From positions 2,484,001 through 2,548,000 of the forward strand of contig NZ_CP117425.1 of assembly GCF_030687295.1 (NCBI RefSeq): a stretch of DNA of 64,000 nucleotides, read 5' to 3'. Below the pieces are notes generated by a model. It worked only from the letters and a program-made list of their open reading frames with translations, had not been told where the DNA came from and made no database searches. Shown piece by piece: positions 10,648 through 61,227 of the stretch. Positions within the stretch are counted from its first letter, which is position 1. Each line of letters opens with the position of its first letter. The translations under genes were made by a program, and so were the position numbers. The DNA is from Pseudomonas beijingensis (GTDB lineage: Bacteria; Pseudomonadota; Gammaproteobacteria; Pseudomonadales; Pseudomonadaceae).

Positions 10648-11508
10648 ATGGCTGAAATCCTTTCGCTGCACGACGCGGTGAAGCAATTCGTCAACGACGG
10701 CGATACCGTCGCGCTCGAAGGCTTCACTCACCTGATTCCTACGGCGGCGGGTCATGAAATCATTCGCCAGGGCAAGAAAGATCTGACCCTGGTGCGCATG
10801 ACGCCTGACCTGATCTATGACCAGTTGATCGGCGCCGGTTGTGCTCGCAAGTTGATTTTCTCCTGGGGCGGCAACCCTGGCGTCGGGTCGTTGCACCGCT
10901 TGCGCGATGCCGTGGAGAAACAGTGGCCGCACCCGCTGGAGATCGAGGAACACAGCCACGCCGACCTGGCTAACGCCTACGTCGCCGGCGCCTCCGGCCT
11001 GCCATTCGCGGTGTTGCGGGCCTACGCCGGCTCCGACCTGCCGAAGGTCAACCCGCTGATCAAGAGCGTGACCTGTCCCTTCACTGGTGAAGTCTTGGCC
11101 GCCGTGCCTTCGGTGCGCCCGGACATCACGGTGATCCACGCCCAGAAAGCCGACCGCAAGGGCAACGTGCTGCTGTGGGGCATCCTCGGTGTGCAGAAAG
11201 AAGCCGCCCTGGCCGCCAAGCGTTGCATCGTCACCGTGGAAGAAATCGTCGACGACCTGAATGCGCCGATGAACGCCTGCGTGCTGCCGACCTGGGCGTT
11301 GAGCGCGGTGTGCCACGTACCGGGCGGTGCTCATCCGTCCTACGCCCACGGTTACACCGAGCGTGACAACCGTTTCTACCAGGCGTGGGACCCGATCGCC
11401 CGGGACCGTGAGACCTTTACCGCCTGGATCAACGAATACATCCATGGCACTAAAGACTTCAGTGAATTCCAGGCCAGACTGGCAGCCGCTTCGCAGGTGA
11501 AACCATGA
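10648..11508 (+). CDS. pcaI: 3-oxoadipate CoA-transferase subunit A
   Basis: The 286-residue protein transfers CoA from succinyl-CoA to 3-oxoadipate together with PcaJ. The ATG at 10648 ('MAEILSLHDAVKQFVNDGD') has 'cgggag' upstream and fits the family N-terminus; the longer frame from 10615 is unlikely. The family I CoA-transferase alpha fold shows 'EGFTHLIPTAAGHEII' and 'SWGGNPGVGSL'. Its TGA overlaps the ATG of pcaJ (ATGA), so the two subunits are translationally coupled. It is longer than P. putida PcaI as I remember it and may belong to the CatI/PcaI-like long form. Confidence 0.9.
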   Translation: MAEILSLHDAVKQFVNDGDTVALEGFTHLIPTAAGHEIIRQGKKDLTLVRMTPDLIYDQLIGAGCARKLIFSWGGNPGVGSLHRLRDAVEKQWPHPLEIEEHSHADLANAYVAGASGLPFAVLRAYAGSDLPKVNPLIKSVTCPFTGEVLAAVPSVRPDITVIHAQKADRKGNVLLWGILGVQKEAALAAKRCIVTVEEIVDDLNAPMNACVLPTWALSAVCHVPGGAHPSYAHGYTERDNRFYQAWDPIARDRETFTAWINEYIHGTKDFSEFQARLAAASQVKP

Positions 11509-47536: not shown

Positions 47537-48685
47537 ATGAGCAGCACTTTTTTCATTCCCGCCGTGAACATCATGGGGCTGGGCTGCCTCGATGAAGCGA
47601 TGACTGCCATTCGCAACTACGGCTTTCGCAAGGCCCTGATCGTCACCGACGCGGGGCTGGCCAAGGCCGGCGTCGCCAGCAAGGTGGCTGAACTGCTGGC
47701 TCTGCAGGATATCGATTCGGTGATTTTCGACGGCGCCAAGCCCAACCCAAGCATCGCCAATGTCGAGCTCGGGCTGGGGCTGCTGAAGGAGAGCCAGTGT
47801 GATTTCGTCGTGTCGCTGGGGGGCGGTTCGCCCCATGATTGCGCCAAGGGCATTGCCCTGTGCGCCACCAACGGCGGGCAGATTCGCGACTATGAAGGCG
47901 TCGACCGTTCGAGCAAGCCGCAATTGCCGCTGATCGCTATCAACACCACGGCAGGCACCGCCAGCGAAATGACCCGCTTTTGCATCATCACCGACGAGAC
48001 ACGCCACGTGAAAATGGCGATTGTCGATCGCAACGTGACCCCATTGATGTCGGTGAACGACCCGGCGCTGATGGTGGCGATGCCCAAGGGCCTGACGGCC
48101 GCCACCGGCATGGATGCGCTGACCCACGCGATCGAGGCTTATGTCTCCACCGCCGCCACGCCGATTACCGATGCCTGCGCGCTGAAGGCCATCACCCTGA
48201 TCAGCAACAACCTGCGCCTGGCCGTGCGCGACGGCAACGATCTGGCGGCGCGGGAAAACATGGCTTATGCGCAGTTTCTCGCGGGGATGGCGTTCAACAA
48301 TGCGTCGTTGGGGTTCGTGCACGCCATGGCGCATCAACTGGGTGGTTTTTACGACTTGCCTCATGGCGTGTGCAACGCGGTGCTGTTGCCTCATGTGCAG
48401 AGCTTCAACGCCTCGGTATGCGCTGCTCGCCTGACCGACGTGGCCCATGCCATGGGCGTCGATACGCACAGGGCCGGCCCAGAAGAGGGGGCCCGGGACG
48501 CTATTGCGGCGATCCGCAGCCTGGCCCTTGACGTGGACATTCCGGCTGGTTTGCGTGACCTGGGTGTGCGCCTCAACGACATACCGGTGCTGGCCACCAA
48601 CGCCTTGAAAGATGCGTGCGGCCTGACCAACCCACGGGCGGCGGACCAGCGGCAGATCGAAGAGATTTTCCGCAGCGCGTTCTAA
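47537..48685 (+). CDS. yiaY: Iron-containing alcohol dehydrogenase, YiaY-like
   Basis: The 382-residue type III alcohol dehydrogenase starts at ATG 47537 behind 'ccaggagcg'. It aligns closely with E. coli YiaY: '[11 protein letters not shown]', '[16 protein letters not shown]' (NAD site) and '[18 protein letters not shown]'. The metal ligands are Asp in '[10 protein letters not shown]' and His in '[11 protein letters not shown]' and '[15 protein letters not shown]'. It oxidises short alcohols; the physiological substrate is unknown. Confidence 0.93.
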
Positions 48686-49845
48686 GCGACCCGGGGCGGC
48701 ACGAACCGCACACAGAGCATCGCCGCCGCCCCCAGCAGTGCGCACAACGCCGCCAGTGGCCAAGCTTGTTGGCTCAACAACAGGCTGGCCATGGCGCCGA
48801 TCACCGAGGCCATAAGTTGATGCAGGAACCCGCTCAACGCCATGGCATAAGCGCCGGCCACCGGTGCGCCTTCATTGGCCAGGGACAGGCTGATGGGATA
48901 GATCAACGACTGGCCAAACACCGCGAAGCAATACGGCAGCCAGAAGAGCAACGCGATGCTGCTCAGGGTGAGGCTGCCTGCCAGCATGGTCATGCTGCCG
49001 CCCAGCACCAGTGCGATGCCCCAGCCCATCATCCGCCGTTGGCCGGTGCGCAGTACAAACGCGTTCACCGCTAGCGCCCCGAGCAGGTACGCCGCACTGA
49101 TCGGCCAGCCCAGCAGGCCGTATTCGATGGCCGACCAGTGGAAGCTCTCCTGCAGGATCAGCGGCGCTGCGGTATTGAAGGCGACGATCACGCCGTAACC
49201 CAGCCCACCGGCCAAGGCCGGCAACAGGAACGCCCGTTGCCGGAATATCTGCCCGTAGATCCCCCACGCCGATTGCCCATTGCTGGCGTGCACCAGTATC
49301 GGGAACCTGGCCTGGGACACAGCCGCTGCCATGGCCAGACTGACGGCACCCAAGCCCTGGAAAATCGCCTCCCAGCCGAAAGCGGCCTGGATCAGCGAGC
49401 CCAGGTATTGGCCGATACCGAGGGCAATCACAAAGGCGATCGATATCCAGGACAGGGCCTTGGCCAACAGGTCGCCGCTGAAACTGTCGCGAATCAAGAC
49501 CCGCGCCATCACTGAGATACCGCTGGCACCGATGCCCTGGATCAACCTGAACGTCAGGAATGCCTCCACGGTTGTGCTCAGCGGCAGGGCCAGGTTGCCC
49601 AGGCCGTACAACCCCAAGGCCGCCAGCAAGACCGGCTTGCGCCCCAAGCGCTGGCTCAGGCTGCCCCACAGCAACATGGGCAGCGCCATGCCGATCAGGT
49701 ACACCGACAGGCCCCAGGAAACCCGCGACGCATCGGCACCAAGATCCCGGGCGATAGCGGGCAGGGCCGGCAAGTAGATGCTCATGCCCAGTTGTGCCAG
49801 GAAGACGGTGGTGCAGGTGACGATCAGGGTGGTACGGTTCTTCAT
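48682..49845 (-). CDS. MFS drug exporter, Bcr/CflA type
   Basis: The 387-residue protein starts at ATG 49845 with 'aggacgctcg' upstream. Bcr/CflA features: '[20 protein letters not shown]' in helix 1 and '[20 protein letters not shown]' after helix 2. It lies 13 bp after the stop of the PLP enzyme gene, so is probably co-transcribed and may export that enzyme's product. Its stop overlaps the convergent yiaY stop. Confidence 0.87.
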
Positions 49846-49858
49846 CGAGCGTCCTGTC

Positions 49859-51094
49859 TCAAGGGCGAAGGTCACGCCCGTGGGTCAGCAGCAGTTCGGT
49901 GATCTGTTCGCAAAACGAGCGAATCACGTCCGGCTCCATGTCGGCGCGCAGGGTAATGCGAATGGCGGCCTTGCCTTGCGGCACCACGGGAAAAAACACC
50001 GCCGAGGTGAAATACCCCAGTTCGGCCAGTTCGACCGCCAGGCTGTTGGCCAGGGTCGCTTCACCGCAAGGCACCATGCGGATCGCCATGGGGGTGCCGC
50101 GCTGTCCGGTCCGCACGAGGCTGTCGAAGAGGCGGATATTAGCTTGTAAACGCGCCTGCAATGCACTGAATTCCCGGCTGCGGTGCAGGCGGATCGACGC
50201 CATGCCGGCGCCAATGGCCGCGGCGTCCAGGCTCTGGGACCAATTGCTCGGCCCACCGTAGCGCTGCACCAGAGCCTTGTGCCGCTCACAGCCAAACATG
50301 ACCAGCCCGCCACTGGCGCCGAATGACTTGGCCAACGAGGCCACGATCAGGGTGCGCTCGTCCACCGCCGGGATGCGCGAACGGACCAGACCAGCGCCGG
50401 ATTCCCCGACGGCAGACAGGGCGTGGGAATCGTCCAGGTAAAGAAACAGGCCATAGCGCTGCTTGAGGTACATCAGGCTGTCCAGGTCAGCCATCCCGCC
50501 CATGCTGTAGGCGCCGTCGGCCACATACGCCACCTCGCGCTGGCGTTTGCACACGTCTTCGATGAAGTCCATGTCGTTGTGCGGGCAGGTGATAACCTGG
50601 GTTTCGTCGGCGCAGGCGGCCTTGCTGTGGTTCATCGAATAATGGGCATGTTTGTCGAACACCATGACGGGCGCGCGATTTTGAGTGAATGCGCCGCTGG
50701 CCAGCAGCGGCAGGATCCCGGCGCTCGCCGCACTGCACGACAGGGCACTGAGGCAACTGGCGCCAAACAGCTCCGACAATTGGCTTTCGTACTGCTCCAG
50801 GATCGCCAGCTTGCAGCGATTCCTTGAGTTGGCGACCCGCAAGGTCCCGGCTTCCCATAGGGCGGTCATGGCGCCGTCCAGCAACGCGGGGTGATAGTCC
50901 AGGCCCAGGTAGGACGTGGTGCAGAAGTGATGAAACGTCCGACCGTATTGATCGACCAGTACATTGGGTGTCTTGACCTCGACATTCAGCCCTGAGATTT
51001 TTCCGGCTTCGGTGCCCTGCCAATCCAGGTCAGCAAGGGAAATGAGCTTGCGGTAGTTGGTGAAGTAATGAGGTGGTTGAGCAGTCTGGTCCAT
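49859..51094 (-). CDS. PLP-dependent alpha-oxoamine synthase (BioF/CqsA/KBL family)
   Basis: The 411-residue fold-type I PLP enzyme condenses an amino acid with an acyl-CoA or acyl-ACP. 'HFCTTSYLGLDYHPALLDGA' is the family N-terminal mark. 'LDDSHALSAVGESGAG' holds the PLP-contact Asp and His, and 'VASLAKSFGASGG' the Schiff-base Lys (about 250). No biotin genes are nearby and the N-terminus differs from BioF, so it is more likely a specialised synthase, like CqsA. The exporter gene follows in the same operon. Confidence 0.8.
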   Translation of the reverse strand: MDQTAQPPHYFTNYRKLISLADLDWQGTEAGKISGLNVEVKTPNVLVDQYGRTFHHFCTTSYLGLDYHPALLDGAMTALWEAGTLRVANSRNRCKLAILEQYESQLSELFGASCLSALSCSAASAGILPLLASGAFTQNRAPVMVFDKHAHYSMNHSKAACADETQVITCPHNDMDFIEDVCKRQREVAYVADGAYSMGGMADLDSLMYLKQRYGLFLYLDDSHALSAVGESGAGLVRSRIPAVDERTLIVASLAKSFGASGGLVMFGCERHKALVQRYGGPSNWSQSLDAAAIGAGMASIRLHRSREFSALQARLQANIRLFDSLVRTGQRGTPMAIRMVPCGEATLANSLAVELAELGYFTSAVFFPVVPQGKAAIRITLRADMEPDVIRSFCEQITELLLTHGRDLRP

Positions 51095-54682: not shown

Positions 54683-56518
54683 TCAATCCAATTTTATTTT
54701 GAGGCAGCTAACTACACCGGACAGGTTGTTCCCGAAAGATTCGAAGAACGGTATGAGTCCGTGCGGCATCGCCTGATAGATTTCCATCCCTTGATAAAAG
54801 CGCCGCAGATAACGAGGCTTCACCGGTAGCCCCATATGGAAAATCGCCTGGGCTATGAACTGCTTTGGGACATTGTTGTAGGTCGCCTTGCAGTTAATGT
54901 AATAGGCGCTCAATCCACAACGCTTGGCGAATTCACCAACGCTGTCCAAGATGTCCAACAGCCGTTCTTCAGATTGCAGCAGGCGACCGCCGCCTTCGAC
55001 GCCGTCAAGCAATAGCCCGGGCACACCTTTGACATCTGCCACGGCAATCAGATTAATACGGCCAATGCGCCGCCCTTGATACCAGACATACAGGCGACAT
55101 AAATTTGGTTCAACCAAATATCCTGGGGCATTGTTGACCGCGTAGTCACCGATACCGGTACAAGAATAAAACTCGTCGGAGCGACTGTAGTCCTGCCATG
55201 GATTTCTGTTCCAGGTACTAATGAACCCCCTCTGCCTTGATTGACGTTCCCTTAAACCCTCCCAATCCTTATCGTCAAGGAAGGTTCTGATACTTGTAAT
55301 ATTTTCAGGTTCTGGCGATCCAATGCTGTCTCTGGGGAAGGCCGCATCTATTATTGACTGCAAACGGGTTTCGGTGTACTCGGCATGTCGGTCGAACAAT
55401 GATTTGTTCCGGTACACCAAGGTTTGCCGGGCGACTTTGTCGTAGGTCGCGTCTATCGCCTGTCCGATCAGCGTTCTGAAACGGGCGATACCCATTTCAC
55501 CGCCCCAATAGTTGAACGGTAAAAACCAAGCGCCAGCATAAGCATCGGTGATATGCCTACGGGCATTGGCAAAGGCGTGTTGCTGTTCGAACCATTTATT
55601 GAAATTATCAATCGCCAACTGATACCGCATGTTTTCGATTGTTTTCGGGTCCATGAGATTTATATTGGAAAGAATCGCGGAGATCAGCCCGCCATCGAAT
55701 ACCCCAGGTGCATCGATATGCGAGATCAGACTCGCTGCATTCAATTGCTCAAGCGAAGCGGTGATGGTACGAACCGCCCCAACCTCCGGCAAACCATTGA
55801 CCAACAGGTAATGGAAGTAGTCAACACTTCCGTCTGACAGCGCGTCAAGACGTTTGTGTACCGTCTGAATACTATGGTGTTCAAATACCACATCAGCATT
55901 TTCCAGCAACGCAACGGCACCAAAACTGCCGTAACGAGCGTGTACGGCGCAAACCAATGCCACCAGCGCATCCAGCTCCGTGGCGGGCAGGTGCCGATGA
56001 TAGTGCTTGATATGGATGAGCAAAGGGGCGCAGCAAGGGCCTAGTACATCCTTGTGGCGTAGCACGCAGCCCATGGCGGCCTGATAATAAGCCACGCCTA
56101 CCGCCTCAAGGATCGACTCCAGATCATCACACAAGGCGGAGTCGGATGTGCCGATCAGACAGGACACGCCGCGTGCAGATTGATCCTTGATGGCCAACAG
56201 GAACTCCACGAACGCCTGCATATCCAAGTGACGCTTGAGCAGCGGGATTTTTTCTATCAGATACGCCGCGACAAAGGCGCTGTTGCGTTCCAATTCAAGA
56301 ATGCCGGGCAAGAACCACGCCCATTCCTCAGCGCTGAGTTCAAGTACATGGCCATGATGCTTAAGTACATTGTTGACCAGTACATCATCGCAGGCGGCAA
56401 TTCGCGACAGTAATTCACCTACCGCCGTCGCAAGCTCGACGCCATGTAACTGCTCAAGGCAGTTGATTGCAACTTCATAAGCGTCGATGTAAGTAGCCAG
56501 TACTTCACGCATACGCAT
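54683..56518 (-). CDS. 611-residue protein of unknown family, possible C-terminal GNAT-like domain
   Basis: I do not recognise the full-length family. Residues 1 to about 300 are mostly alpha-helical and Leu-rich, resembling a helical-repeat scaffold. About 320-420 contains 'HITDAYAGAWFLPFNYWGGE'. About 440-600 alternates strands and helices in a GNAT-like order: 'CRLYVWYQGRRIGRINLIAV', 'VPGLLLDGVEGGG', a helix 'ERLLDILDSVGEFAKRCGL', then 'YYINCKA' and 'FHMGLPVKPRYLRRFYQGM'. If it is a GNAT, it could transfer an acyl or aminoacyl group. It is the last gene of the cluster with the tRNA-like array and MATE exporter, 84 bp after the MATE stop, with 'gagggg' before the ATG. Confidence 0.75.
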   Translation of the reverse strand: MRMREVLATYIDAYEVAINCLEQLHGVELATAVGELLSRIAACDDVLVNNVLKHHGHVLELSAEEWAWFLPGILELERNSAFVAAYLIEKIPLLKRHLDMQAFVEFLLAIKDQSARGVSCLIGTSDSALCDDLESILEAVGVAYYQAAMGCVLRHKDVLGPCCAPLLIHIKHYHRHLPATELDALVALVCAVHARYGSFGAVALLENADVVFEHHSIQTVHKRLDALSDGSVDYFHYLLVNGLPEVGAVRTITASLEQLNAASLISHIDAPGVFDGGLISAILSNINLMDPKTIENMRYQLAIDNFNKWFEQQHAFANARRHITDAYAGAWFLPFNYWGGEMGIARFRTLIGQAIDATYDKVARQTLVYRNKSLFDRHAEYTETRLQSIIDAAFPRDSIGSPEPENITSIRTFLDDKDWEGLRERQSRQRGFISTWNRNPWQDYSRSDEFYSCTGIGDYAVNNAPGYLVEPNLCRLYVWYQGRRIGRINLIAVADVKGVPGLLLDGVEGGGRLLQSEERLLDILDSVGEFAKRCGLSAYYINCKATYNNVPKQFIAQAIFHMGLPVKPRYLRRFYQGMEIYQAMPHGLIPFFESFGNNLSGVVSCLKIKLD

Positions 56519-56602: not shown

Positions 56603-57985
56603 CTAGTCGTGTGTAGGGCTTGCGCTCAGTAAGGGACTGTTGGGTTTTGTGACCAGTGCCAGCCGTACCGTCAGCATCAGCAACGAAAGGAGATGACTGA
56701 GGATCAGCGCCACCCATAGACCGACTACGCCTTGATCCATGTTGAATGCCAAGTGATATCCACCGGCCACGCCGACCAACCAGGCGGTAGCGGTATTGAT
56801 AAGGAAGGGCACCTTGGTATCTTCCAAACCCTTCAATGCGCCCAGCAGCATGATCTGGACGCACTCAAAGACGATGCTCAGTGTCGCCAGGCAAACAATC
56901 AGATTGAACTGGGTTAGAAGATCAGAGTTCGAGGAGGCTTTGACGTCGAAGAACATGGAAGCTACCAACGTGGAATCGAAAAATACGATAAGGGCAAAAG
57001 GCAACAAGACCAGCATGCCGACCATGGATGCCACCACCGTCAGTTTTCGCACTTTGTGCACGTTATCCAGCGCATGCTCTTGAGCGACACGAATGGCAAT
57101 GGCTTCACGAACCCCTTCAACCAGCATGTATACTGGAAAGATATAGGAGAACACCAGTTGTGCCGCTGCCAACTCCAATGTGCCCACCTTCTCTGTAAAG
57201 AGCATAAGGAGGATGATCATCAGCGAAATGACAAAGCTAGTGGCAGAGAGTGGCAACCCCATCGCCAAGTATTTTTTTACCAGGGATAGTTTAGGTGCCG
57301 CCCAGCCTGTGAAGATGGCGTATGCCTTGGCGGATTTGCGGTTGCTCAGTGAGTAGAGTCCGACCTCCGCAGCCAGCATTCCCCAGCTTACCAAGGAGGT
57401 TGAAAGCCCCGCACCATATGCACCCAGCCGCGGAAAACCGAACTCACCTAGGATCAGTGCGTAGGAAATCACCGCTTTAAATACGCATGCAAACAGCGTG
57501 ATGTAGAAAATGGACGAAAAGTCGGAAACCGCCGCCGAGTGGTCCCGCAGGACGCAGAACAACGCTAACGGCAAGATTGAGTAGACCGCGCCTTGTGCGT
57601 ATTGATCAGCCTGGAAAGACACCGCTGGGTCGACATTGAAGGCAAGCAGCAAGCTGCCAAGATTCAACGTCACCAGAACGACTGGGAGACCAAGTAGAAA
57701 GCACATGTAGAAACCATGTTGCACATGCACTTCCACGGCTCGTTTGTTCTGAATGGCGTCGTACTTGGCTGAAAAAACCGCAACCATGCCAATGACGCAC
57801 ACGCAAATGACATTAGCGGTGTCGAAAACAATACGAGCGCCTAAACCATAGCCAGCAATTTCATCTGCACGAAATCTGCCCATGAATACGGAGTCAACGA
57901 ATGCCATCATGCTCTCAATCAGATAGACGATTGAAAGTGGTACCGCAATTTTGATGATGCGCCGACCCTCTGAAACCCACTGCAT
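56603..57985 (-). CDS. MATE-family exporter
   Basis: About 460 residues with twelve predicted membrane helices. I chose the ATG at 57985, which has 'gaaggatgcaggat' upstream; an ATG at 57994 abuts that site. MATE marks: 'FVDSVFMGRFRADEIAGYGL' in the first helices and 'YGAGLSTSLVSWGM' and 'TEKVGTLELAAAQLVFSYIF' in the middle. MATE proteins exchange Na+ or H+ for drugs or secondary metabolites. Its place between the tRNA-like array and the 611-residue protein suggests it exports the cluster's product. Base composition is AT-richer than the genome. Confidence 0.88.
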   Translation of the reverse strand: MQWVSEGRRIIKIAVPLSIVYLIESMMAFVDSVFMGRFRADEIAGYGLGARIVFDTANVICVCVIGMVAVFSAKYDAIQNKRAVEVHVQHGFYMCFLLGLPVVLVTLNLGSLLLAFNVDPAVSFQADQYAQGAVYSILPLALFCVLRDHSAAVSDFSSIFYITLFACVFKAVISYALILGEFGFPRLGAYGAGLSTSLVSWGMLAAEVGLYSLSNRKSAKAYAIFTGWAAPKLSLVKKYLAMGLPLSATSFVISLMIILLMLFTEKVGTLELAAAQLVFSYIFPVYMLVEGVREAIAIRVAQEHALDNVHKVRKLTVVASMVGMLVLLPFALIVFFDSTLVASMFFDVKASSNSDLLTQFNLIVCLATLSIVFECVQIMLLGALKGLEDTKVPFLINTATAWLVGVAGGYHLAFNMDQGVVGLWVALILSHLLSLLMLTVRLALVTKPNSPLLSASPTHD

Positions 57986-58090
57986 ATCCTGCATCCTTCA
58001 TTCAAGTCAGCACAGACAAGAAGATCGAATGTGCTTACAAACTGTTCAAGTTGTCCCTCGCTGAGCTGAACAAACCGAACTGCCGATAAT

Positions 58091-58168
58091 TGGTGGAGGA
58101 GAGTGAGACTCGAACTCACGACTACCAACTTAAGTAGTTGGCGCCCAAGCCACCGGGCGTTCTCCCCC
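58091..58168 (-). tRNA. tRNA-like gene, copy A (unusual, with encoded CCA)
   Basis: The 78-nt element folds as a cloverleaf on the minus strand. The acceptor is GGGGGAGA / TCTCCTCC, 8 bp with one G-U. One A joins it to a 5-bp D stem CGCCC/GGGCG with loop GGTGGCTT. Anticodon stem is CCAAC/GTTGG with loop TACTTAA, variable region TAGTC, and T arm GTGAG-TTCGAGT-CTCAC. Discriminator A and CCA follow. Oddities: 8-bp acceptor, single-base connector, no base between D and anticodon stems, and A at the usual U33. The central triplet is CTT (would read AAG); a weaker register gives TAA. Amino-acid identity is therefore unassigned. Confidence 0.65.
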
Positions 58169-58185
58169 GTTACATGCCTTGCCTG

Positions 58186-58338
58186 TCGAACGCGAAGCAA
58201 TCGCGATCGAATAAAAAATGGTGGAGGAGAGTGAGACTCGAACTCACGACTACCAACTTAAGTAGTTGGCGCCCAAGCCACCGGGCGTTCTCCCCCGTTA
58301 CATGCCTTGCCTGTCGAACGCGAAGCAATCGCGATCGA
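58186..58338 (-). repeat. Spacer hairpins in the tRNA-like array
   Basis: Each 50-bp spacer holds an inverted repeat (58186-58210 and 58314-58338): arms TCGA and CGCGA around a 5-base loop, with one T-T mismatch. It lies just after the T-run that follows each CCA end. It could be a processing or termination signal between tRNA units. In the third spacer (58442-58466) pairing is largely lost. Confidence 0.55.
58219..58296 (-). tRNA. tRNA-like gene, copy B
   Basis: Identical over all 78 nt to copy A and offset by exactly 128 bp. Its CCA end is followed on the minus strand by a T-run, then the 25-bp hairpin of the spacer. Confidence 0.65.
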
Positions 58339-58346
58339 ATAAAAAT

Positions 58347-58424
58347 TGGTGGAGGAGAGTGAGACTCGAACTCACGACTACCAACTTAAGTAGTTGGCGC
58401 CCAAGCCACCGGGCGTTCTCCCCC
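58347..58424 (-). tRNA. tRNA-like gene, copy C
   Basis: Identical over all 78 nt to copies A and B, again at a 128-bp offset. The exact identity of three copies indicates recent duplication or ongoing homogenisation. The upstream spacer (58425-58473) is more diverged than the other two. Confidence 0.65.
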
Positions 58425-58473
58425 GTTACATGCCTTGCCTCTCGAATGCGAAGCAACCGAGACCGAGTAAAAA

Positions 58474-58560
58474 TGGTGGAGAGGAGTAAAATCCCAATTC
58501 ACTCCACCAGTTTAAGTAGCTTAAGTCCGTTCCGGACGTAGTTGCGTTATTGCGTTGTTC
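58474..58560 (-). pseudogene. Decayed fourth tRNA-like copy D
   Basis: Read on the minus strand it keeps 'CTACTTAA', a T arm GTGAA-TTGGGAT-TTTAC and the end 'TCCTCTCCACCA', all aligned with copies A-C. The 5' acceptor and D arm cannot be recognised. It starts directly after the dehydrogenase-like gene and is the promoter-proximal unit of the array. It could also be a diverged, differently folded element. Confidence 0.5.
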
Positions 58561-58566
58561 CTGCCA

Positions 58567-59640
58567 CTAGCCTTCCAGTACCGCAGAGTGGAATAAGTCA
58601 GCGCTGGCACGTTGCGCATGCATGGCCATATCCAGGTTCCGGTTGTAAAGATGTTCATCTGTTCCATGCTTGAGATAGTTCACTACCGAGCTGATTGCCA
58701 CGCTTGCCATCTCATCCCACACGGCAGCGGTCGACGCTCCTACATAGGGGGTGCAGATGAAACGGTCATCAGGCAGCTCAAGCATGGCGATCGGCATGTT
58801 GATCGCCTCGCCATTCTTGATGAGTGGTGGCATATCCCAGTTCTTGTCGTCAAACGCGGCCCCTGCAATTTTCTGCTCGAGCAGGGCCTTGTAGAGTGCC
58901 CGGCCATCAACTAACGAGGCCTCTGATGTATTGATCAGCATGGCGGAGGATTTCATCAGGGCAATTTCCTGCTCTCCGATGAGGCCCAATGTGGAGTCGT
59001 TGTACGGACAGGCCAGAATCACCACGTCACTACTTTCCAATAATGAGGCCATCGACAGTCGTTGGGCCTGGATATCGCGTTCTATGTCGAGTTTCTGCGA
59101 GTTAGCGGTGTAGACGATCCTGGACTTGAACCCATCGTGCATTATTCGGGCAATGCGGGAGCCGACCCTGCCCATACCGATGATGCCGATCACCGCATCC
59201 TTGAGAAGCGGAGTATCCATTTCATGCAGACGACCTTTTTTTTGTTCGGTATGGAAGTAGATCAATTTCCTTCTTAGCGCGATAACCAGCCCCACGAGAA
59301 ACTCGCCCATGGCGTCGTACATCACTTTCAAGCCTGGCGTATTGGTAACCGAGATACCGAGGCGATCTGCTGCATCAATATCGACCAAATGCTCGGCCCC
59401 GGTAGCCAGGCATGCCACGAGCTGCAATTGGGCAGCGTGCCGCAGGACCTCTTCGGTCAGTATTTCCTCACCAGCTTGAATATAAATATGTGCGTCGGTG
59501 ATTGCGGAGATAAGCCGTGCCTGATCGGGAAACGATTCATGGATCAGATCCACATCGTAATGCGATGAATTAAATTTGCAGATTTGGTTTTGAGCCAGGC
59601 GATCAGCCCCGGAAATAACTACTTTAATTCGCTCTGACAC
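58567..59640 (-). CDS. D-2-hydroxyacid dehydrogenase-like protein with altered catalytic site
   Basis: The 357-residue protein starts at GTG 59640 with 'caaggatattgcc' upstream. It has the formate/glycerate dehydrogenase fold, with NAD motif 'IGIIGMGRVGSRIARI' (about residue 155). The usual catalytic Arg position ('NTARG-VD') reads 'INTSEASLVDG', the Glu region reads 'GAAFDDKNWD', and the catalytic His ('TPH-G') is Tyr in 'ICTPYVGAST'. All three triad residues thus seem replaced. It probably binds NAD(H), but classical hydroxyacid oxidation is doubtful. First gene of the cluster, ending just before the tRNA-like array. Confidence 0.85.
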   Translation of the reverse strand: MSERIKVVISGADRLAQNQICKFNSSHYDVDLIHESFPDQARLISAITDAHIYIQAGEEILTEEVLRHAAQLQLVACLATGAEHLVDIDAADRLGISVTNTPGLKVMYDAMGEFLVGLVIALRRKLIYFHTEQKKGRLHEMDTPLLKDAVIGIIGMGRVGSRIARIMHDGFKSRIVYTANSQKLDIERDIQAQRLSMASLLESSDVVILACPYNDSTLGLIGEQEIALMKSSAMLINTSEASLVDGRALYKALLEQKIAGAAFDDKNWDMPPLIKNGEAINMPIAMLELPDDRFICTPYVGASTAAVWDEMASVAISSVVNYLKHGTDEHLYNRNLDMAMHAQRASADLFHSAVLEG

Positions 59641-60329
59641 GGCAATATCCTTGGGTAGTGTTGTGAAGGTGAATTTGAAATATAAGAATAAGGTGCAATC
59701 AAGTGACTGAAAACAAAGGTGTCAACATGAGAGGTGTCTTCTTTAATCTGGTGCGTGCTGTGCCAGAAATTAATTGGGGTCATTATCTTGTTCGAGAATT
59801 TTTCAGTGTCTTGAAAGTAAGTCGCCATATGAAATGATGGTTTGTTCCTTGTGTCAAATTTCCTTTGTAAATCTTTATGCTTGATAAGTTGTTCGCCGAT
59901 GAATATTTGTTTAAATGTCGTTGGTGGTAAGGTCTGCGAATGAACGCGTCAATCTGTTCATATAATAGTTGGTTTATTTTGGACAGGACGGAGTCCTTTG
60001 TTGCGTTGTTTTTCAACGCTGAACAAATTATTTCCATGAACGATTATTCGGCGACGGCTGAGCCAGTGGCGGGGAAGGGAGGGTGGCATCCTTTCGAGCC
60101 GCAAACCCGTCATGGGCGGGACGTGGCGCTTGAGCGGTGCCATACGCGACACATTGAACCACCCGTAGGTGATCAAGTTGAATTGGTCTGTCGAGGGGGC
60201 GGCAACAACGAGGTGGTGAAATAGCAAGTCACAAACATCCGCGCCATTCCTCGCTCGGCACGATGGTCATTCGCAACCATTGGATCTTTCGCAGGTCACT
60301 GCTGAAAGTCCTCAGTATTGGAGTACACC
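59641..60329. other. AT-rich region upstream of the cluster
   Basis: 59641-60040 is strongly AT-rich, unlike the 60% GC surroundings, and probably holds the cluster promoter. It carries two weak minus-strand ORFs: 59783-60037 (84 codons) and 59619-59828 (69 codons, overlapping the dehydrogenase start). Neither has a good ribosome binding site or a recognisable family. 60041-60230 returns to high GC with no credible gene. The boundary near 60040 may be an island edge. Confidence 0.45.
59783..60037 (-). CDS. Possible small protein upstream of the cluster
   Basis: An 84-codon ORF starts 'MEIICSALKNNATKDSVL' and contains an amphipathic N-terminal helix ('LSKINQLLYEQIDAFIRR') followed by a basic, polar tail. 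It is on the same strand as and about 140 bp upstream of the dehydrogenase-like gene. No ribosome binding site is seen. It may be a leader gene, a precursor-like peptide or chance. Confidence 0.25.
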   Translation of the reverse strand: MEIICSALKNNATKDSVLSKINQLLYEQIDAFIRRPYHQRHLNKYSSANNLSSIKIYKGNLTQGTNHHFIWRLTFKTLKNSRTR

Positions 60330-60600: not shown

Positions 60601-61011
60601 TCACCGCCCCTGCTGCAACACCTTCAGCGCTGCCGACGCCAGGAAGCCGGAGCGGCTCTTCTCTTCAGGATGGTGCAACACATACTCATCGATACGGTTG
60701 AGCAGGTAGCCGGGCAACGTGATGTTGAGTTTCTGCGCCTTGCCCAGGTATTTGGTCACATCGATATCCACCAGTGCCCAGGTGCAACCGGCATATTGCG
60801 GATTGGCTACGTGCAAGGTGACGGTGTTGGCCGGCGGAATCGGCGAGCCGTCTTCAGCCAGAATCTCGAAGTGACCCTCGATAGCCTCACGCGCCATCGC
60901 CATGGCTTCGTCCAGGTCGTCGCCAGCGGAAAAACATCCTGGAATATCTGGCACTTCAACACCCCAGGCGTGGTTGTCATCGCCCATGGAAATCGCAATC
61001 GGGTAAAGCAT
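60601..61011 (-). CDS. hicB: HicB-family antitoxin
   Basis: The 136-residue protein starts at the ATG 61011, chosen because 'cggaggacgatgaat' puts GGAGG at proper distance; an ATG two codons upstream is too close. The HicB partial RNase H-like domain is 'MGDDNHAWGVEVPDIPGCFS' with 'EAMAMAREAIEGHFEIL'. A ribbon-helix-helix C-terminus ('LNITLPGYLLNRIDEYV') would bind DNA. Pair with hicA upstream, whose frame is broken. Confidence 0.88.
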   Translation of the reverse strand: MLYPIAISMGDDNHAWGVEVPDIPGCFSAGDDLDEAMAMAREAIEGHFEILAEDGSPIPPANTVTLHVANPQYAGCTWALVDIDVTKYLGKAQKLNITLPGYLLNRIDEYVLHHPEEKSRSGFLASAALKVLQQGR

Positions 61012-61227
61012 ATTCATCGTCCTCCGGGAACGTCGCGCAACGGGCCGGCTGAAGCAGCGCCTGTTGCAAAATACTGATGGCCGTTTTCTTGAGCAGGTCC
61101 TCTTCGGATGAGGAACCGTGACCAATCCCGGTTTGGTAGGGTGCTTGAAGTGATGGTGACTGCCCCGAACCCGCACCAGATACCAACCGTCTGCAATGAT
61201 CTGGCTTATCAAAAATCGGCTATTCAC
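60977..61227 (-). pseudogene. hicA: HicA toxin gene, frameshifted
   Basis: The start at 61227 gives a normal HicA: 'MNSRFLISQIIADGWYLVRV', then 'RGSHHHFKHPTKPGLVTVPHPK' with the catalytic His. One base is missing near 61100-61105, after 'PHPK'. The expected 'DLLKKTAISILQQALL' continues in a second frame, which has no stop until 60977, inside hicB. The toxin is an RNA-cleaving dsRBD-like protein; as sequenced it would be a long frameshifted product fused in frame to hicB. Confidence 0.75.

Follow-up and report, generated by a model that had tools for sequence, protein, structure and literature searches.

Charged transfer RNA (tRNA) serves several bacterial pathways outside the ribosome. Here we analyze a tandem array of odd tRNA genes in Pseudomonas beijingensis that may provide such a pathway with a private, probably alanylated and non-decoding donor. 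The array lies in a stretch of 64,000 nucleotides (nt) (contig NZ_CP117425.1, positions 2,484,001 to 2,548,000; "the window"), among genes for a dehydrogenase, a MATE transporter and a 611-residue protein. In Staphylococcus aureus, extra tRNA-Gly isoacceptors are thought to escape translation and to feed non-ribosomal transfer by FemXAB. According to the sections of PMC4052509 that cover them, these non-proteinogenic tRNAs serve the cell wall, and weak T-stem pairs together with a D loop that has lost its GG let them escape; in the same sections, how charged tRNA is diverted from translation is called somewhat unclear for most cases. Antibiotic pathways also have GNAT-fold enzymes that work with aminoacyl-tRNA; those of the PacB type (PacB uses alanine) act in small natural-product clusters, for which the relevant passages of PMC12945691 describe no tRNA gene. 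The pearlin pathways in those passages, such as that to 3-thiaglutamate in Pseudomonas syringae (TglB), use aminoacyl-tRNA with a LanB-like ligase and a carrier peptide. Finally, selenocysteine tRNA (tRNA-Sec) and RNAs resembling it (selC* tRNA-Cys, allo-tRNA) have an acceptor stem of 8 base pairs (bp), which in tRNA-Sec weakens EF-Tu binding about 100-fold, as stated in the parts of PMC7609411 on these RNAs.

The array resembles each of these systems and departs from each. Like the extra tRNA-Gly of S. aureus, its tRNAs would feed a non-ribosomal transfer, but they keep G51-C63 and the D-loop GG, have an 8-bp acceptor and sit in a metabolite operon. The locus is like the PacB-type clusters in that a small natural-product cluster would draw on charged tRNA; it differs in holding tRNA genes of its own, and its 611-residue protein differs from PacB-type enzymes in its weak fold assignment and in showing no detectable sequence similarity to any Pfam or NCBIfam family. 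With the pearlin pathways it shares the setting of a Pseudomonas small-molecule cluster that would use aminoacyl-tRNA, although no LanB-like ligase was found among the genes scanned here. The 8-bp acceptor and, in the free fold, a long D stem and a 6-bp anticodon stem are common to the array and the tRNA-Sec-like RNAs, whereas a 5-nt variable loop in place of the long arm, the lack of UCA, A73 and the tandem arrangement in a metabolite operon set the array apart. Such a locus is known in kind, from non-proteinogenic tRNAs and tRNA-dependent natural products. The combination is new to the extent that an open-access library, which misses many journals, can show, and no paper describing such an array was found there.

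Anatomy and fold of the array

On the minus strand, a 78-nt tRNA gene that encodes its own CCA recurs in three exact copies, with a period of 128 bp (copy-to-copy spacings of 128 and 128). The first intact copy in transcription order occupies 58347..58424, and repeat comparison finds the second (58219..58296) and third (58091..58168) identical to it. This agrees with the original prediction, as does a decayed fourth copy at the upstream edge of the array (minus strand, ~58474..58551, bounds set by eye from the period), in which a 34-nt stretch (58469-58502) is 76% identical to the 78-mer. ARAGORN calls all three intact copies, and each (3/3) scores 40.9 bits with RF00005, the general tRNA covariance model, above its cut-off of 29.

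Folded without constraints, the 78-mer forms a cloverleaf (z -3.45; equally stable shuffles, 0/200) with an 8-bp acceptor, a one-nt connector, no linker, a 5-nt variable loop and a 5-bp T stem. The long acceptor, short connector and missing linker drawn earlier were thus reproduced. The D stem, which had been drawn with 5 bp, holds that length in the drawing only and extends to 7 bp in the free fold; the anticodon stem similarly grows from 5 to 6 bp, and its loop shrinks to 5 nt. The 3' end is A73 followed by CCA. All acceptor positions pair, as had been claimed, but the third pair, G3-U70, is a wobble not mentioned before, which we consider the most telling feature of the 78-mer. Position 33 is A, not U, in 17/17 copies from the window and its relatives, which extends the observation made for the window.

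The anticodon of tRNA-Sec is UCA and that of pyrrolysine tRNA (tRNA-Pyl) is CUA. Both had been invoked as likenesses, and the comparison stands in part. The 78-mer does have the 13-bp acceptor domain (8/5) by which PMC7609411, in its parts on these RNAs, defines tRNA-Sec, but it scores 34.2 bits with the tRNA-Sec model, below the Rfam cut-off of 47, and with its 5-nt variable loop and YUU anticodon (CUU or UUU) it was rejected as a tRNA-Sec. We also rejected allo-tRNA, defined in the same source by a 12-bp domain (8/4 or 9/3) and a long variable arm, and tRNA-Pyl, given the YUU anticodon, a connector A where the M. barkeri type has U, and a D loop with the GG that the M. barkeri type lacks.

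Amino-acid identity of the tRNA

The acceptor end of the tRNA points to alanine, not to the amino acid of the anticodon. G3-U70 together with A73 was found in 17/17 copies. The first two pairs also match tRNA-Ala in being G-C, apart from A2-C71 in one copy of genome G309. One copy in Pseudomonas frederiksbergensis 36C6 ends in CAA. Among 42 distinct host tRNA sequences (a sample that includes the odd tRNA, not every host tRNA gene), G3-U70 is combined with A73 only in two tRNA-Ala and in the odd tRNA; the host tRNA-Arg(UCU) has G3-U70 but G73. The array has G1-C72, G2-C71, G3-U70 and A73 in common with tRNA-Ala, and G4-C69 of the window copies recurs in both host tRNA-Ala. Over the whole molecule, the best match among 23 aligned host tRNAs is tRNA-Gly(GCC) (50/78 columns), with tRNA-Lys at 46/79 and tRNA-Ala at 46/80.

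A decoding tRNA-Ala has an NGC anticodon in a 7-nt loop after U33. The array has CUU or UUU after A33, and its 8-bp acceptor and one-nt connector also differ from tRNA-Ala. Alanyl-tRNA synthetase (AlaRS) relies on G3-U70 and does not touch the anticodon, and other tRNAs become alanylated when given this pair, according to the passages on identity elements in PMC6451123 and PMC9976931. Recognition by AlaRS through G3-U70 and A73, irrespective of the anticodon, would lead to charging of the array tRNA with alanine, a prediction made from sequence.

ARAGORN labels the 78-mer tRNA-Lys(CUU) because the anticodon position reads CUU or UUU (17/17 copies, with U35 and U36 invariant). One could accordingly suppose the same private donor to carry lysine, charged by the host lysyl-tRNA synthetase through the YUU anticodon and A73, which are the elements that the identity passages of PMC9976931 give for lysine in Escherichia coli. 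This deserves attention, since U35 and U36 are invariant, but we consider it unlikely: G3-U70 would draw AlaRS, U33 is replaced by A, the free fold pairs into the loop and leaves 5 nt of it, and the C-U variation at position 34 is also expected from neutral drift. With respect to an elongator tRNA-Lys, the copies have the YUU anticodon and A73 (17/17) and lack U33, the 7-bp acceptor and the two-nt connector. Two ordinary tRNA-Lys(UUU) genes are among the host genes sampled, so translation has no need of the array.

Distribution, linkage and conservation

The 611-residue gene occurs in 3/398 Pseudomonas genomes. Two protein searches, which scored 7,997 candidates sharing most words, returned the same 9 homologous proteins, one of them (P0001, 99% identical) being the window's own; P0008 and P0009 are 68% and 62% identical. 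A scan of one genome per species (84,980 species) with two short conserved peptides, which could miss divergent relatives, gave 2 loci, one in P. frederiksbergensis 36C6 (L007) and one in Pseudomonas orientalis DSM 17489 (L008), where the match is the same as in G309. Four distinct loci were thus available (the window, G361, G309 and L007), and the array lies between the dehydrogenase side and the MATE gene in 4/4. The linkage to the MATE and 611-residue genes likewise holds in 4/4 genomes that could be checked, a count that covers neither P0002-P0004 nor P0006-P0009.

The number of copies varies. We found 3 in the window and 4 in G361; in G309, 3 lie at the end of one contig, while another, presumably adjacent contig starts with 4 more and a decayed copy; L007 has 3, together with a decayed copy and a partial one that borders a run of N. 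In 3/4 loci (58474-58551 in the window, 567-644 of L039 in G309, ~4809-4886 in L007) it is the 5'-most copy that has decayed, whereas in G361 this copy is intact; the pattern looks as though homogenisation did not reach the array's edge.

A covariance model (R1) built from 11 copies was run on the 398 Pseudomonas genomes. The three genomes with the 611-residue gene (G000, G309 and G361) alone gave scores of 97-111 bits, and every other genome stayed at or below 55 bits; the decayed copy in G309 reached 57.5 bits. Array and gene thus co-occur in the same 3/398 genomes. At E 1e-6, R1 matches in 397/398 genomes because it is close to the general tRNA model, and at E 1e-10 it matched 1/390 genomes of the order and 1/360 of the class, each time the window's own only. 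Neither the array nor the 611-residue protein had a match in plasmids. In phages, the array gave only short tRNA matches in one Synechococcus phage (two records), and in viral contigs we found no match of the tRNA pattern and none of the 611-residue protein, represented by two short peptides and searched in these contigs, not in the phage records. A phage or plasmid origin was rejected on these results. The original prediction would have read the array as a decayed repeat had it lacked covariance support or had its homologues been scattered; the cut-off is passed and the homologues are linked to the cluster. Since it occupies the same place in three further Pseudomonas genomes and co-occurs with the 611-residue gene, the array is not a stray decayed repeat.

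Compared from genome to genome, the tRNA averages 95-98% identity and its spacers average 63-83%. Across 8 distinct rows, the cloverleaf has 98.9% of cells paired, a percentage reached by 6/500 shuffles, against at most 59.2% for any slide. Covariation inside the tRNA is real but small, with 2/23 pairs changed on both sides, a count that 203/500 shuffles reach. Given the high identity beside drifting spacers and the maintained pairing, it is the mature tRNA that is conserved. Purifying selection acts on the protein genes, which have no internal stop and a ratio of nonsynonymous to synonymous divergence (dN/dS) of 0.040-0.191 in 21/22 comparisons, the last being saturated. Between genomes, dS of the cassette genes is 0.25-1.92.

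Proposed role and alternatives

The 611-residue protein (54683..56518, minus strand) belongs to no named family. None of 10 members of its family had a significant Pfam or NCBIfam family, and a sequence search of the PDB with the family gave nothing of note (best E 0.27). The last 147 residues are GNAT-like in weak fold models, with matches that include the tRNA-acting GNAT toxins AtaT and TacT, tied with many other GNATs; the first 245 residues had a designed helical cage as their only fold match. The protein, possibly a GNAT-fold enzyme, carries no net positive charge (57 K+R, 71 D+E).

We tentatively favor a multicopy, operon-private tRNA that is alanylated by the host and serves as amino acid donor for the 611-residue enzyme. 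Once expressed, the tRNA would be charged with alanine by the host AlaRS, reading G3-U70 and A73; no synthetase was found among the annotated genes beside the array in the window and its relatives. It should not decode, and the 13-bp acceptor/T stack, the missing U33 and the shrunken anticodon loop would keep it from EF-Tu and translation. With alanine attached, a tRNA bearing this anticodon would put the wrong amino acid at lysine codons, so these three features look protective. The 611-residue protein, with its GNAT-like C-terminal domain, would then take the aminoacyl group from the tRNA, and the group would be joined to a small metabolite that the dehydrogenase makes, in relatives together with an EncM-like flavin oxidase and a pyridoxal phosphate (PLP) enzyme related to MppP; the MATE transporter would export the product. 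FemX needs G2-C71 (in the FemX sections of PMC4052509), and we counted the presence of this pair in 16/17 array copies in favor of a donor. Weighing against it, G51-C63 and the D-loop GG are kept, both of which are lost in the S. aureus non-proteinogenic tRNAs. Transfer outside the ribosome had already been proposed for this array, and with a tRNA both private and linked it is still the best explanation; what has changed is that the acceptor end speaks for alanine and that oxidative enzymes typical of natural-product pathways accompany the array in relatives.

The tRNA might instead be a carrier rather than a donor, the aminoacyl group being acylated or oxidized while on the private tRNA and released later. 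The array would then provide a dedicated RNA carrier for natural-product synthesis, with the odd body as a docking handle: the host AlaRS would load the tRNA, and the 611-residue enzyme and the oxidases would modify the amino acid while it is esterified there, so that the product is built on the tRNA. The fold matches to AtaT and TacT, which acetylate aminoacyl-tRNA, fit this scheme, and carrier-based synthesis on a peptide is known from the pearlins (pearlin passages of PMC12945691). Since those matches are tied with many other GNATs, and the passages on these pathways offer no precedent for a tRNA as carrier, we regard it as distinctly unlikely. A regulator or decoy without aminoacyl transfer, such as a sponge or a self-protection RNA for the product of the operon, seems quite improbable. 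Pseudo-tRNAs with regulatory roles do exist, such as tRNAOther of Bacillus cereus (described in part of PMC3399842), and multicopy dosage fits a sponge, but a decoy would not need the CCA, the discriminator and the identity pairs, all of which are conserved. A decaying tRNA repeat on a mobile cassette, without function of its own, is very improbable despite the decayed 5'-most copy in 3/4 loci and a cassette GC content below that of the surrounding window, since the identity of inner copies remains at 95-98% between genomes even though the spacers drift and the cassette genes have diverged to the dS given above, and array and 611-residue gene co-occur.

If the donor explanation is true, an alanine acceptor code under a lysine anticodon, in a multicopy tRNA of its own, offers a clean natural test, since identity, EF-Tu escape and enzyme docking could each be changed in one small RNA. 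The array also points to an unnamed protein family and a putative product.

Neighboring genes and other features

As had been predicted for the array and the genes on either side of it, one strand (minus) is used throughout. In transcription order, the cluster runs from a D-2-hydroxyacid dehydrogenase family gene (58567..59640, 357 residues; PF02826 at 7.5e-36, PF00389 at 1.4e-15) through the array and the MATE efflux transporter gene (56603..57994, 463 residues; PF01554 at 6.4e-34, TIGR00797 over its cut-off) to the 611-residue gene, and these presumably form one operon.

G361 and G309 have two extra genes, a flavin oxidase between the dehydrogenase and the array and a PLP enzyme after the 611-residue gene. 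The oxidase has the Pfam domains FAD_binding_4 and BBE; with the L007 protein as query, its PDB relatives are led by EncM, and the copies in G309 and G361 are 90% and 76% identical to it. The PLP enzyme gene closes the cluster (L005:6693-7865 and L006:7014-8189, both minus strand, in G361 and G309) and is absent from the window. Its best PDB relatives are 7n79 (306 bits), the arginine hydroxylase MppP (5dj1, 195 bits) and 6c3a. The proteins of G361 and G309 score 159 and 147 bits against an NCBIfam MppP equivalog cut-off of 450, which classes the enzyme as a relative of MppP and not as an equivalog. In L007 the oxidase is present and the PLP gene is cut short, with only its start left. No oxidase relative was found at 1e-20 in the window's genome, where the sole PLP relative is 38% identical and far from the array; the window's version of the cluster may be reduced. 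Because EncM-like oxidases and MppP-type PLP enzymes tailor amino-acid-derived metabolites, the cluster likely makes a small natural product, perhaps from arginine.

The cassette genes and the array have a GC content of 51-54% in a window of 60%. The cassette is at 50-52% in L007, with 60% on its right side and 50% on its left, and at 60-65% beside 65% in G361. Horizontal movement of the cassette is likely.

The spacer at 58297..58346 (minus strand) contains a small hairpin also seen in relatives, with moderate support (z -1.80 for the spacer alone), and the spacer alignment places the same hairpin at 58169..58218 (minus strand). In this alignment of ten hand-picked spacers, two of them beside decayed copies, 91.3% of cells are paired and 2 pairs changed on both sides, a count also reached by 207/500 shuffles; for 4/8 pairs one or more sequences lack the pairing, and the covariation score is 0.331, against 0.275 when slid by -1. 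In the G361 spacers (L005, ~11366-11415), the hairpin loop holds GGTGGCTT, the same eight letters as the tRNA D loop. A possible promoter at 59827..59857 (minus strand) has a TTGACA kept in 4/4 aligned upstream regions, a weak -10 and a long spacer; the consensus promoter scan did not pick it up, and promoter and terminator counts were at chance level.

Elsewhere in G000 (contig C1, 5036046-5036158, L094), RF00005 matches 113 nt with 32.6 bits, but ARAGORN calls no tRNA there. In the window, one frame at 60601-61227 (minus strand) matches a HicA toxin (residues 6-47) and a HicB-like antitoxin (75-200), overlapping or fused. At 48682-51094 (minus strand), a BioF/Kbl-type PLP enzyme gene adjoins an MFS transporter gene, another possible small-metabolite pair.
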